NCBI RefSeq assembly: GCF_001542815.1
Contig: NZ_CP006992.1
Span: forward strand, 974,001 to 1,038,000
Length of the DNA: 64,000 bases
Direction: 5' to 3'
From: Methylobacterium sp. AMS5
GTDB taxonomy: Bacteria > Pseudomonadota > Alphaproteobacteria > Rhizobiales > Beijerinckiaceae
Under the pieces are notes generated by a model. The model was not told the DNA's origin. It ran no database searches and saw only the letters and a list, made by a program, of their open reading frames with translations. The number at the start of each line of letters is the position of its first letter. Position 1 is the stretch's first letter. The position numbers were made by a program, and so were the translations under genes. Shown here piece by piece: positions 10,688 through 15,640 of the stretch.

Positions 10688-12712
10688 TCAGCGCCGCGGC
10701 AAGGTGTGCAGCCCGCGTAGGAAGAGGTCGACGTCCTCCCGCGTGTTGTAGAAGGCCAAAGAGGCGCGCACCGACTGATCGACGCCGAAGCGGCGCAGGG
10801 CCGGCAGGGCGCAGTGATGGCCCGAGCGCACCGCGATTCCGAGAGAATCGAGGTGGTGGGCGACGGCCTCGTTGGTGAGGCCATCGATCGTGAAGGACAT
10901 GACGCTCGCCTTGTCGAGCGCGGTACCGATCAGGCGCAGGCCCTTCACCTCAGCCAAGCCTTCCTGGGCGTAGTCGAGCAGGTCGTGCTCGTAGGCCGCG
11001 ATCGCCGGCAGGCCGACGCTCTCGAGGTAGTCGAGCGCTGCACCGAGGCCGACGGCGCCGGCAATGTCGGGCGTGCCCGCCTCGAATTTTTCGGGCGCGC
11101 CCTTGTAGACGGTCTTGGCGAAGGTGACGTCCTCGATCATGTGGCCGCCGCCCTGCCACGGCGGCATCGCCTCCAGGAGGTGCCGCTTCCCGTACAGGGC
11201 GCCGATGCCGGTCGGCCCGAACACCTTATGGCCGGAGAACACCAGGAAATCGGCGTCGAGCGCCTGCACGTCGATGGGGATGTGCGGGGTCGATTGCGCG
11301 GCATCGACCAGCACCGGCACGCCGTAGGCATGCGCCAGAGCGATGATTTCCCGGATCGGGTTCACCGTGCCGAGCGCGTTGGCGACATGCGTGACCGAGA
11401 CGATCTTGGTGCGGCCCGAGAGCAAAGCGGCGTATTGCTCGAAGATGATCTCGCCCCGGTCGTTGACCGGGATCACCCGGATCGTCGCGCCGGTCGCCTG
11501 CGCCAGCAATTGCCAGGGCACGATGTTGGCGTGGTGCTCGATGGTCGAGACGATGATCTCGTCGCCCGCGCCGATATTCGCCCGGCCGTAGGAGTTGGCG
11601 ACGAGGTTGATCGCTTCCGTGGTGCCGCGCAGGAAGACGATGTCGTCCTTGCTCGGCGCGTTGAGGAAGCGCCGCGTCTTCTCGCGCCCGCCCTCGAACA
11701 GATCCGTGGAGCGCGCCGCCAGCGTGTGCGCGGCCCGGTGGATGTTCGAGTTGTGGCGACTGTAGAACTCCGCTGTGGCGTCGATCACGCTCTGCGGCTT
11801 GTGGGTGGTGGCCGCGTTGTCGAGCCAGACGAGGCGGTGGCCGTTCACGCTCTGGTGCAGCGCCGGGAAGTCCTTTCGCACGTGCTCGACATCGAACGGC
11901 GCGCCGGCCGGGACCGACCCGTGCGAGGTCACCCGCGGGGCGGGCCCCGCGTGGCGCGAGGGCTCGACCCGCAGCTGGGCGGCAGCCTTCTTGCCCCTCG
12001 CGGGCGGCGGGGCCGGGCTCAGGAAGTAGTAATCGCCCGTGTTGTCGGGAGCGGATCCGCCCGGATGCGGGCGCTGGCCGGTGCGCGAAAAACGCTCCTG
12101 CGCGGCGTCGCCGCCGGGCTTGCCGGGATCGCGCGGCACGAGGTGCGGCGCCAGCGCGTGGGCGAAGCCGTTGGCGCGGGGATGGTCGGTCGCGATCTGC
12201 CGGTGCAGGTCGGGGCCGCCGGGGATCGCCGCGGCTACGTCGGGCAAGCTCGGTACGAAGAATTCGGGCAGCCGGTCCGGGCTCGGGAACGGATGCACCG
12301 AGGGGATCGCCGCCACATCGAACAGGTTTGCGCTCGCCGGCGCGGGCGTCGCACCGACCGGGTTGGCGTGGGACGGACCGGTCAGGCCCGGCAGGCCGAC
12401 CGGCGGCGCACCGAAGGTCCGGGCAGCCTGGGCCGAGACGTCGGGCTGAAAGCCCGACGGCAGCGCGCCCGACGGCACGGAGGGCGTGCCGAGGGCGGCG
12501 CCGGGCAGCGCGGGCTGCCCGGAACCGGTGGGGAGGGTTTCCAGGTCCTGCGGGGCCTGAGGCGTCTGCGGCAGGTGGGTCTGGAACGGCGCGCTGGCCG
12601 CCTGTCCCTGGCCATAGATCTCGCGGGCGAGGCGCGAGACGAGATCGGCATGCGCCAGATCGCCCGCGCTGCCGGTCGGAAGACCGAGAGCGGGTGCGTT
12701 AGGCGTAGTCAT
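10688..12712 (-). CDS. Encapsulin cargo protein: cysteine desulfurase (SufS-like) with disordered cargo-loading domain
   Basis: A 674-residue protein in two parts. Residues 1-272 are low-complexity, rich in Pro, Ala and Gly, with short hydrophobic islands (a repeated DVAAIP/DVAAAIP at 132-137 and 158-164, and DYYFLSP at 227-233). Residues 273-674 are a complete class V aminotransferase of the SufS type with the PLP lysine K496 (FSGHKVFGP) and the persulfide cysteine C634 (RSGHHCALPAL). Such enzymes convert cysteine to alanine plus enzyme-bound persulfide. The N-terminal extension matches the cargo-loading domains of Family 2 encapsulin cysteine desulfurases. The ATG overlaps the last 14 bases of the shell gene, so shell and cargo are translationally coupled. 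Confidence 0.92.
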   Translation of the reverse strand: MTTPNAPALGLPTGSAGDLAHADLVSRLAREIYGQGQAASAPFQTHLPQTPQAPQDLETLPTGSGQPALPGAALGTPSVPSGALPSGFQPDVSAQAARTFGAPPVGLPGLTGPSHANPVGATPAPASANLFDVAAIPSVHPFPSPDRLPEFFVPSLPDVAAAIPGGPDLHRQIATDHPRANGFAHALAPHLVPRDPGKPGGDAAQERFSRTGQRPHPGGSAPDNTGDYYFLSPAPPPARGKKAAAQLRVEPSRHAGPAPRVTSHGSVPAGAPFDVEHVRKDFPALHQSVNGHRLVWLDNAATTHKPQSVIDATAEFYSRHNSNIHRAAHTLAARSTDLFEGGREKTRRFLNAPSKDDIVFLRGTTEAINLVANSYGRANIGAGDEIIVSTIEHHANIVPWQLLAQATGATIRVIPVNDRGEIIFEQYAALLSGRTKIVSVTHVANALGTVNPIREIIALAHAYGVPVLVDAAQSTPHIPIDVQALDADFLVFSGHKVFGPTGIGALYGKRHLLEAMPPWQGGGHMIEDVTFAKTVYKGAPEKFEAGTPDIAGAVGLGAALDYLESVGLPAIAAYEHDLLDYAQEGLAEVKGLRLIGTALDKASVMSFTIDGLTNEAVAHHLDSLGIAVRSGHHCALPALRRFGVDQSVRASLAFYNTREDVDLFLRGLHTLPRR

Positions 12713-14090
12713 GGTAGTTGCCCAGCAGCACGTTATCGAGACGGGCGATCGCGTCCTCGACCAGCACGGCGGCCGAGAAGTAGCGGGTCACGAGGTGCGA
12801 GGCGATGGAGTGATCGTTGGTGCCCATGTAACGCACCGACAGGCCGGGCTCGATCTCGCCGGTCACGCCCGACTTCTGCAGGCCGACCACGCCCTGCTCG
12901 CCCTCGCCGACGCGCAGCAGCAGGATCGAGGTGGTCTGCGCACCCGTCGCCGGATCGGTGTCGATCGGCAGCTTGTCGCTCGGCACCAGCGGCACGCCGC
13001 GCCAGGTGATGAAGGGCGCGCCGAAGAGGTGGACGACCACGGGTGGCACCCCGCGGCGGGTGGCCTCGCGGCCGAAGGCGGCGATGGCGCGCGGATGGGC
13101 CACGAAGAAGGCGGGCTTCTTCCACACCAGGGTCAGCAGCTCGTCCAGATCGTCCGGGGTCGGCGGCCCTGAGCGGGTCGGGATGCGCTGGCGGCCGGCG
13201 ACCTCGCCGAGCAGGCCGAACTGCGAGTTGTTCAGCAGTTCCCACTCCTCGCGCTCCTTCACGGCATCGACCGTGAGGCGGATCTGCTCGCGCAGCTGAT
13301 CGATCTCGTTGGAATAGAGATCGGTGACGCGGGTGTGGGTGTTGAGGATCGTCTGGATCGTCGAGAGGTGATACTCGCGCGGATCGATCTCGTAATCGAC
13401 GAAGGTGGTCGGCAGGCGCGGCTCGCCGGCATGGACCGCCAGGAGTTCGATACCCTGCTCGCCGTAGGAGTTGGTGTGGCCTTTCAGGCGGTCACGCTCC
13501 TCCTGGTACTGGTCGATGCGCGAGCGGACGGCCTCGTCCTCGATCGCGGCGCGGTCGAGGGTGAGCAGCGTCACCGCCGAGAGCGCCTTCACCGCCGGCG
13601 CCGGGCCGGCCTCACCGACGAGGGCGTCGTCGCCGAAATAGTCGCCGCGCGTGGCAAGCCCCTGGCGCAGCCGGCCCTTATAGGGGCCCGACAGGGTCAG
13701 CTCGACCGTGCCGTCGGCAACCACAACGAGGCTGCGGCCGGACGAGCCCTCCTCGGCGATGACCTCGCCGGCCTTGTGCCGGCTCTGCGTGAACTTGTCC
13801 GCGAGCGCGGCCAGTTCGGCGTCGCCCAGGCGGCTGAACAGCGGCACGGCCCGCAGCGAGCTGGGGCGTATTGTGCGGCCCTTGTCCTCAAGACTGAGAT
13901 CGATGCGGCCGGGCTTGGCCAGCACCACGGCGCGGCGGTTGACCCGGTAGACGCCGCCGGCAACGTCGACGAAGGGCAGGAGACGCAGGAGGAAACGGGG
14001 AGTGTTGGCGACATTCTGGACCGACGTGACGGTCGCGGTCGCTAGATTACGCGCAGCGGATGCACTCACGCTCAGGCCCGGTCCACTCAT
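12699..14090 (-). CDS. Family 2 encapsulin shell protein with cyclic-nucleotide-binding domain (2B type)
   Basis: A 463-residue HK97-fold shell subunit. N-arm at about 1-60 (FLLRLLPFVDVAGGVYRVNRR region), a CRP-like cyclic-nucleotide-binding domain at about 80-185 (LRAVPLFSRLGDAELAALA, later GDYFGDDALVGE), then the capsid body with FVDYEIDPREYHL and a C-terminal RYMGTNDHSIASHLVTRYF region. The phosphate-binding cassette is degenerate: the usual Arg-Ala pair is absent, so cAMP binding is doubtful. An in-frame ATG at 14246 exists, but AAGGAG at 14101-14106 lies ten bases before ATG 14090 and fixes the start. It is followed by its cysteine desulfurase cargo and preceded by serine acetyltransferase. 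Confidence 0.92.
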   Translation of the reverse strand: MSGPGLSVSASAARNLATATVTSVQNVANTPRFLLRLLPFVDVAGGVYRVNRRAVVLAKPGRIDLSLEDKGRTIRPSSLRAVPLFSRLGDAELAALADKFTQSRHKAGEVIAEEGSSGRSLVVVADGTVELTLSGPYKGRLRQGLATRGDYFGDDALVGEAGPAPAVKALSAVTLLTLDRAAIEDEAVRSRIDQYQEERDRLKGHTNSYGEQGIELLAVHAGEPRLPTTFVDYEIDPREYHLSTIQTILNTHTRVTDLYSNEIDQLREQIRLTVDAVKEREEWELLNNSQFGLLGEVAGRQRIPTRSGPPTPDDLDELLTLVWKKPAFFVAHPRAIAAFGREATRRGVPPVVVHLFGAPFITWRGVPLVPSDKLPIDTDPATGAQTTSILLLRVGEGEQGVVGLQKSGVTGEIEPGLSVRYMGTNDHSIASHLVTRYFSAAVLVEDAIARLDNVLLGNYHDYA

Positions 14091-15416: not shown

Positions 15417-15436
15417 CTTCGGACGGTCCGATCGCT

Positions 15437-15640
15437 TCAGGAGATGCGCCGGAACAGGTCCGGCAGGTAGCTCTGCAGGGTCTCGTGGCCGTCGAACTGG
15501 ACATCGATCGTGGCGCGGCCGGCCTGACCGTGGATGCCGACCACCCAGCCCCGCGCATGGCGCCAGATCCCGAGGGCTTCGGCGAGGTCGAGCCGATCGA
15601 ACACGACCTGATCGCCGGGAAGCATCGTCGCACTCAGCAT
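15437..15640 (-). CDS. Small uncharacterised protein, first gene of the encapsulin/cysE unit
   Basis: A 67-residue acidic to neutral protein, with no signal peptide, membrane segment or cysteine. AAGGA lies eight bases before the ATG, a good ribosome site, and the stop is 20 bases before cysE. The pattern GDQVVFDRL, then GWVVGIHGQ and TIDVQFDG, looks like three beta strands and could form a small barrel. I do not recognise the family. Position and coding quality argue that it is real and co-transcribed with cysE; a role in cysteine or sulfur-compartment function is inferred only from context. Confidence 0.65.
   Translation of the reverse strand: MLSATMLPGDQVVFDRLDLAEALGIWRHARGWVVGIHGQAGRATIDVQFDGHETLQSYLPDLFRRIS

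Follow-up and report, generated by a model that had tools for sequence, protein, structure and literature searches.

Introduction

Encapsulins that package a cysteine desulfurase (CyD) are the closest described counterparts of the system analysed here, which lies on the minus strand of a 64,000-nucleotide stretch of Methylobacterium sp. AMS5 (contig NZ_CP006992.1, positions 974,001 to 1,038,000; hereafter the window) and comprises an encapsulin shell gene, a CyD gene and, upstream of both, a serine acetyltransferase gene (cysE). In the Family 2A system SrpI/CyD of Synechococcus elongatus, loading of CyD depends on its leader and the enzyme has raised activity inside the shell; SrpI-type desulfurases carry two leader motifs, LARLANEFFS and AASPYYFLDG, and SrpI P196 has been given a role in the pore (Nichols 2021, PMC8049743). 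A survey assigned 1281 desulfurase operons to Family 2A and 199, from 9 phyla, to Family 2B, and proposed channelling to a rhodanese for desulfurase encapsulins (Andreas and Giessen 2021, PMC8346489). Family 2B shells carry a CRP-like domain (CBD), and in a further report these domains sit above the two-fold pore, ligand-dependent gating is proposed, the 2B insert is stated to have bound no cyclic nucleotide in earlier work, and desulfurase encapsulins are cited as involved in sulfur storage (PMC12407261).

The AMS5 locus shares with SrpI/CyD the cargo enzyme, similar leader motifs, a Gly and a Pro at the five-fold pore and an adjoining serine acetyltransferase. SrpI, however, has no CBD, belongs to a separate clade and carries F262 and Y273 where the clade of the AMS5 shell has Tyr and His. 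Like the 2B desulfurase operons of the 2021 survey, the locus combines a shell that bears a CBD with an adjacent long-leader desulfurase of SufS type, and we found no difference in kind between the two. An initial annotation of the window had presented this pairing as a distinct, undescribed variant, a claim that we reject because 2B desulfurase operons were already counted in 2021, a kind of evidence that the annotation itself had listed as refuting it. Whereas the survey sorts shells by presence of the CBD, the HK97 core groups the AMS5 shell with desulfurase shells that lack it. What the analysis adds is a desulfurase-shell lineage that extends across the 2A/2B divide and includes a natural CBD-less branch; the pairing itself was known.

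Drawing on sequences, phylogeny, motif conservation and gene context, we consider it likely that the locus encodes a Family 2 encapsulin that packages CyD, that its HK97 lineage spans the 2A/2B divide, and that its CBD is a fast-evolving outer module without the cyclic-nucleotide cassette. From the same evidence we infer assembly, loading, sulfur storage, the direction in which the CBD changed and its dispensability.

Results

Family assignment of the shell

The AMS5 shell matches PF19307 (SrpI-like; E = 1.6e-108), which places it in Family 2, and PF00027 (cNMP_binding; E = 2.3e-9), the best stretch of the latter being residues 104-185 of the 463-residue protein. It scores 574.8 bits against the NCBIfam model encap_f2b (cut-off 400; residues 59-509 of the 515-residue open reading frame (ORF)) and also passes encap_f2a, with a lower score of 419.7 bits (cut-off 380). 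Judged by its sequence and by the published rule of CBD presence, it is a Family 2B shell: a CBD is inserted in the E-loop, and the HK97 core lies outside the canonical 2A clade, so the shell does not belong to Family 2A. The initial annotation had proposed a 2B-type shell with a CRP-like insert at residues about 80-185 and had suggested profile searches and a phylogeny as checks; the insert was recovered at residues 78-185, the 2B profile scored above the 2A profile, and the phylogeny kept the shell out of canonical 2A.

By sequence, the nearest PDB chains are 9bje, 9bhu and 9bix, which cover almost the whole shell; MMPI and SrpI chains come next and cover the HK97 part. Some sources, including PDB depositors, name relatives of the shell as CRP/FNR regulators, an identity ruled out for this protein by its full-length encapsulin match. 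The AMS5 genome contains a single PF19307 match and no second shell gene. A viral origin found no backing: a scan of viral contigs gave no relative of the shell, and phage records yielded two matches, both from Acinetobacter records and confined to query residues 214-462.

A desulfurase-shell clade with and without the CBD

Maximum-likelihood trees of the HK97 core were built with the CBD columns removed, using 71 and 97 rows hand-chosen from the retrieved shells; both trees are unrooted. Row L065 was wrongly trimmed in the 71-row tree and is replaced by L067 in the 97-row tree, with the same outcome. The AMS5 shell falls in a desulfurase-shell clade, which we call clade I (33 and 60 rows in the 71- and 97-row trees, support 100/100 in both), composed of Alphaproteobacteria and Verrucomicrobiota and separate from the canonical 2A clade (23 and 22 rows, support 100/99) and from a terpene-type 2B clade (10 rows, support 100/100), for three members of which (L122-L124) a terpene synthase was seen. 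Within clade I the CBD is present in 26 and 32 rows and absent from 7 and 28. The distribution of the CBD requires two changes on the tree, with a single change allowed in 0% of 200 bootstrap trees, and forcing all CBD-bearing shells into one clade was rejected (approximately unbiased test, p = 0.0008 and 0.011 in two runs). Forcing the clade-I CBD shells together with the actinobacterial and terpene shells, a grouping picked after the tree had been viewed, gave p = 0.017. Relatives in two of the genome scans were drawn from nearly the same 240 genomes (L068 and L074 come from the same phylum), so these scans are not independent.

Identity to the AMS5 HK97 core was 75-83% for CBD-bearing clade-I shells from loci outside Methylobacterium; five clade-I shells without the CBD reached 74.6-77.6%, and P0115 and P0118, which are Acetobacter-like, 70%. 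Outside this range were the actinobacterial desulfurase shells of 2B type (58-61%), two deep Verrucomicrobiota shells (59%), canonical 2A (47.5-58%) and the three terpene shells (49.5-53%). The deep Verrucomicrobiota shells (L114 and L115) are desulfurase shells with a CBD whose position in the tree is unsure. The terpene-cyclase 2B shells resemble the AMS5 shell in having a CBD at the same site of the E-loop and the linker described below, and differ from it in cargo, pore residue and HK97-core identity.

In the alignments, the five-fold-pore proline (P349 in AMS5) tracks the cargo and not the CBD. It is Pro in all 43 rows with a desulfurase gene seen, and Tyr, Ala or Val in the three rows with a terpene synthase seen; by tree group, the count is 87/87 against 0/10 in the terpene clade. 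At the places of the SrpI cargo-contact residues F262 and Y273, clade-I shells have Tyr and His, both with the CBD (32/32 and 32/32) and without it (27/28 and 28/28), while the terpene 2B shells keep Phe and Tyr (10/10 and 10/10), as canonical 2A does.

A linker scar in the CBD-less relatives

In 24 of 26 rows of CBD-bearing clade-I shells, an NxxGE linker closes the insert and leads back into the HK97 core. The linker is also present in both deep Verrucomicrobiota shells, in 9 of 10 terpene-clade rows and in 6 of 7 CBD-less clade-I rows, as against 0 of 23 canonical 2A rows. Among 119 further CBD-less relatives (the best 120 of 8000 scored, minus the query), strict NxxGE was found within residues 30-110 in 108, and tighter placement directly before F-V-D-Y, with D or S also permitted, in 100. 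Such a remnant is what domain loss would leave, and its survival in CBD-less clade-I shells points to deletion of the CBD.

The CBD-less Verrucomicrobiota shells lie in the same HK97 clade as the AMS5 shell and share its pore residue, and in five loci with retrieved DNA they also share its cargo (CyD kept in 5/5) and leader motifs; they differ in lacking the CBD, and most carry the linker scar. Three of them (P0283, P0291 and P0320) are named family 2A by NCBI. A rhodanese-epsC-cysK context, partly overlapping, is common to CBD-less (L145-L149) and CBD-bearing (L068, L069, L071, L074, L076 and L152) Verrucomicrobiota loci; it is incomplete in places (epsC only in L146, cysK only in L069, with some loci truncated at the end of a contig), and rhodanese matched weakly, at 31-48% over some 80-110 residues. 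These patterns are most simply explained by a single loss of the CBD in a Verrucomicrobiota branch that kept CyD, and the existence of close CBD-less relatives with the same enzyme suggests that the insert is a removable extra.

The opposite direction is that the CBD-less clade-I shells are ancestral and that the CBD was gained in the AMS5 branch independently of the terpene 2B shells. Because the CBD-less and CBD-bearing shells form near-sister halves of clade I, the tree alone permits a gain. We nevertheless judge this very unlikely: two insertions at one site would be required, whereas deep Verrucomicrobiota shells and terpene 2B shells have the same insertion site and NxxGE linker, and CBD-less shells carry the scar.

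On balance we favour loss, and with it the view that 2A and 2B are not natural groups: the HK97 core and the cargo-contact residues would then define one desulfurase lineage, in a large Verrucomicrobiota branch of which the CBD was deleted, leaving a scar, while the cargo and its leader motifs were kept together with much of the operon, so that the CBD would be dispensable for desulfurase encapsulation. In the open-licence PubMed Central literature (subscription papers, preprints and supplements aside), we found no statement of CBD loss within the desulfurase-shell clade.

The CBD as an outer module

The CBD of the AMS5 shell aligns with the CBDs of cGMP/cAMP kinases. The canonical phosphate-binding cassette has a Glu and an Arg; AMS5 has Asp at the Glu place and Pro (Pro163) at the Arg place, so the cassette is not intact, in agreement with the degenerate cassette described in the initial annotation. 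At the Arg place, 25 clade-I CBDs have Arg in two and Lys in five, and the terpene-clade shells have Trp or Phe. Mean pairwise identity among the 25 clade-I rows is 40% for the CBD and 80% for the core, compared with 52% and 74% in the terpene clade. In P0115 and P0117-P0119 (P0118 and P0119 are named Acetobacter), the insert has its full length and Pfam reports no CBD; in these shells the domain looks eroded.

The initial annotation had also raised the possibility of a nucleotide-responsive shell. This is unlikely because the 2B insert bound no cyclic nucleotide in published work (PMC12407261), the domain evolves fast and it is absent from a near-sister lineage. The best reading of these sequences is that the CBD is a fast-evolving, apparently dispensable outer module rather than a cAMP sensor. 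Alternatively, the CBD could be a working gate over the two-fold pore that is moved by some small ligand not of the cyclic-nucleotide kind and regulates cysteine or sulfur flux. The location of the CBDs and the published gating proposal (PMC12407261) speak for such a gate, as does the retention of a CBD-length insert in all 32 sampled clade-I rows other than the CBD-less ones. We regard it as unlikely, if less so than the other alternatives considered here, given the low identity of the domain relative to the core, the variability of both cassette positions examined, the full-length proteins in which Pfam finds no CBD, and the lack of the domain in a near-sister branch that has the same cargo.

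The desulfurase and its leader

CyD scores 811.7 bits against f2_encap_cargo1, a model titled as family 2A cargo, narrowly above the cut-off of 800. Its SufS domain begins at about residue 273, and the catalytic positions Lys496, which we take to bind pyridoxal phosphate, and Cys634 are present, their roles presumably being those of E. coli SufS. The leader of about 270 residues and the 14-base overlap between the CyD start and the shell gene end, both given in the initial annotation, were confirmed, the overlap being exactly 14 nucleotides (nt).

Three patterns were followed through the leaders: the core of the published AASPYYFLDG motif (YYFL), a helix-like motif (LVSRLAREIY in AMS5) that resembles the published LARLANEFFS, and a VHP motif. 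The YYFL-type pattern occurs in 77/77 Methylobacterium loci (near-duplicates among them), 4/5 other alphaproteobacterial loci, 6/6 Verrucomicrobiota loci with the CBD and 4/5 without it, 16/23 leaders of canonical 2A, 1/2 of the deep Verrucomicrobiota and 0/3 of the actinobacterial group; shuffled leaders give ≤0.1 matches per group. For the helix pattern the corresponding counts are 73/77, 3/5, 5/6, 5/5, 5/23, 1/2 and 0/3, and for the VHP pattern 73/77, 3/5, 6/6, 5/5, 1/23, 0/2 and 0/3, by which the VHP motif is mostly limited to clade I. Among the actinobacterial CBD-bearing desulfurase shells (L111, L112 and L121), the CyD leaders of L111 and L121 are short and the CyD start of L112 is unsure; with none of the tested patterns present and two leaders short, loading may differ there.

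A search of the AMS5 genome with the first 337 residues of CyD found no second protein with this leader. The sole other match (query residues 189-336, 37% identity) lies next to the other SufS-like gene of the genome, a 418-residue ORF without a long leader, and we read the ORF that precedes the latter as SufD-like. With this separate SufS-like ORF present, CyD at the shell locus is probably an extra, non-housekeeping copy.

In the mechanism that we propose, the CyD leader would dock on the inner shell wall, cysteine would enter through the five-fold pore, and CyD would release sulfur inside the shell, to be stored or handed on, with cysE raising the cysteine supply. A different role would be delivery, in which partners are supplied with persulfide, for instance for iron-sulfur clusters, with no sulfur storage and with a leader that merely tethers CyD. 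Channelling to a rhodanese was proposed in the 2021 survey (PMC8346489), and the weakly matching rhodanese-like genes near relatives accord with it. The separate SufS-like gene of AMS5, the lack of a rhodanese in Methylobacterium noted below and the citation of desulfurase encapsulins in sulfur storage (PMC12407261) point the other way, and we think delivery improbable.

Distribution and gene context

A PF19307 match was found in 32 of 37 genomes of the same genus, AMS5 included, and in 0 of 24 genomes of other genera of the order (61 near genomes sampled in all); in a wider draw over the phylum it was found in 17 of 398. A scan of named genomes matched 326 relatives, of which the best 80 were kept as related loci. 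In all 80 a CyD match adjoins the shell gene, and in 73 the shell/CyD overlap is also 14 nt; the CyD of L010 is cut by a contig end and that of L035 is split over two frames. The annotation of a Kitasatospora RefSeq plasmid (L111) has a 2B shell gene next to a SufS desulfurase gene, the two likewise overlapping by 14 nt.

The coordinates of the AMS5 features are collected in Table 1. The likely start of the shell, giving 463 residues, is an ATG preceded by AAGGAG, and the start of cysE is probably that indicated by comparison with relatives. The initial annotation placed cysE just upstream of the shell, which is correct, although a gap of 420 nt with a conserved promoter separates the end of cysE from the shell start; the gap is only 41 nt in Xanthobacter (L065) and 66 nt in Aquabacter (L080).

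Table 1 Features of the AMS5 encapsulin locus, in window positions
Feature	Position	Strand	Basis or remark
CyD, cysteine desulfurase, 674 aa	10688..12712	-	f2_encap_cargo1, SufS family
CyD leader, residues 1-272, putative loading domain	11897..12712	-	SufS domain start; leader comparison
Leader motif LVSRLAREIY, helix-like, residues 24-33	12614..12643	-	resembles published LARLANEFFS
Leader motif PSVHP, residues 137-141	12290..12304	-	leader comparison
Leader motif YYFL, residues 228-231	12020..12031	-	core of published AASPYYFLDG
Shell ORF	12699-14246	-	GTG start, 515 aa
Family 2B (CBD-bearing) encapsulin shell, 463 aa	12699..14090	-	PF19307, PF00027, encap_f2b; likely ATG at 14090 after AAGGAG
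Five-fold pore proline P349 (= SrpI P196)	13044..13046	-	alignment; row counts by cargo
CBD in E-loop, shell residues 78-185	13536..13859	-	PF00027, alignment
Phosphate-cassette Arg place, Pro163	13602..13604	-	CBD alignment
Conserved promoter TTGACC, 17 nt, CTAGTA	14308..14336	-	Methylobacterium upstream regions
Proximal dyad GAA-N5-TTC, abuts -35	14337..14351	-	Methylobacterium upstream regions
Distal dyad GA(A/G)-N5-TTC, 93 bp upstream	14430..14444	-	Methylobacterium upstream regions
cysE ORF	14511-15716	-	serine acetyltransferase; SATase_N E 7.5e-30, TIGR01172
cysE, probable start at 15353	14511..15353	-	start from comparison with relatives

Upstream of the shell, the exact proximal dyad with TTGAC was present in 28 of 77 Methylobacterium upstream regions and in 0 of 15,400 single-base shuffles. 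With one mismatch permitted at the anchored offset, the proximal dyad was found in 56 of 70 distinct regions, a count favoured by the choice of the TTGAC with the best dyad as anchor where several occurred; the distal dyad was found in 34 of 70. The AMS5 genome has two copies of the exact proximal pattern, the other one being at G000:C1:4048825-4048842 (about 3326-3343 in L139). Near that copy lie a ribbon-helix-helix regulator gene and, on the opposite strand at a distance of about 1.8 kb, a gene for a TauE/SafE sulfite exporter; the ORF directly downstream of the dyad has no Pfam match.

No RNA element reached the gathering score in positions 8000-20000 of the window. About 3 kb from cysE, two genes for small membrane proteins lie at 18619-19512; one product is like the YeeE/YedE sulfur transporters (PF04143, slightly below the cut-off) and the other is a DUF6691 protein. 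An extracytoplasmic function sigma factor and FecR-like regulator pair occupies 9026-10540 and is convergent with the CyD gene.

Discussion

Several observations weigh against parts of the interpretation that we prefer, in which a desulfurase lineage kept its cargo and lost its CBD in one branch. The three CBD-bearing actinobacterial desulfurase shells all lack NxxGE (0/3), so the scar is not a perfect marker of the CBD, and unrooted trees cannot separate loss from gain. Terpene 2B and canonical 2A agree at F262/Y273 and clade I differs from both, and the pair therefore marks lineage and not cargo. The Arg or Lys retained at the cassette position of a few clade-I CBDs means that some relatives might still bind an anion. 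With the helix pattern in just 5 of 23 canonical 2A leaders, the match of LVSRLAREIY to the first published motif rests on resemblance, and none of the four Methylobacterium loci tested yielded a rhodanese, a frequent member of such operons.

Simple sequence markers of desulfurase shells are available in the proline of the five-fold pore and in the YYFL motif of the leader. If the loss reading is true, the 2A and 2B labels in databases follow one removable domain and not descent. The CBD of 2B encapsulins is described as having a function still to be determined (PMC12407261), and a clade with apparent CBD loss and with cargo, pore and leader kept offers matched pairs for addressing it: natural CBD-bearing and CBD-less shells that differ mainly in this domain would, if that reading holds, show what the CBD does.

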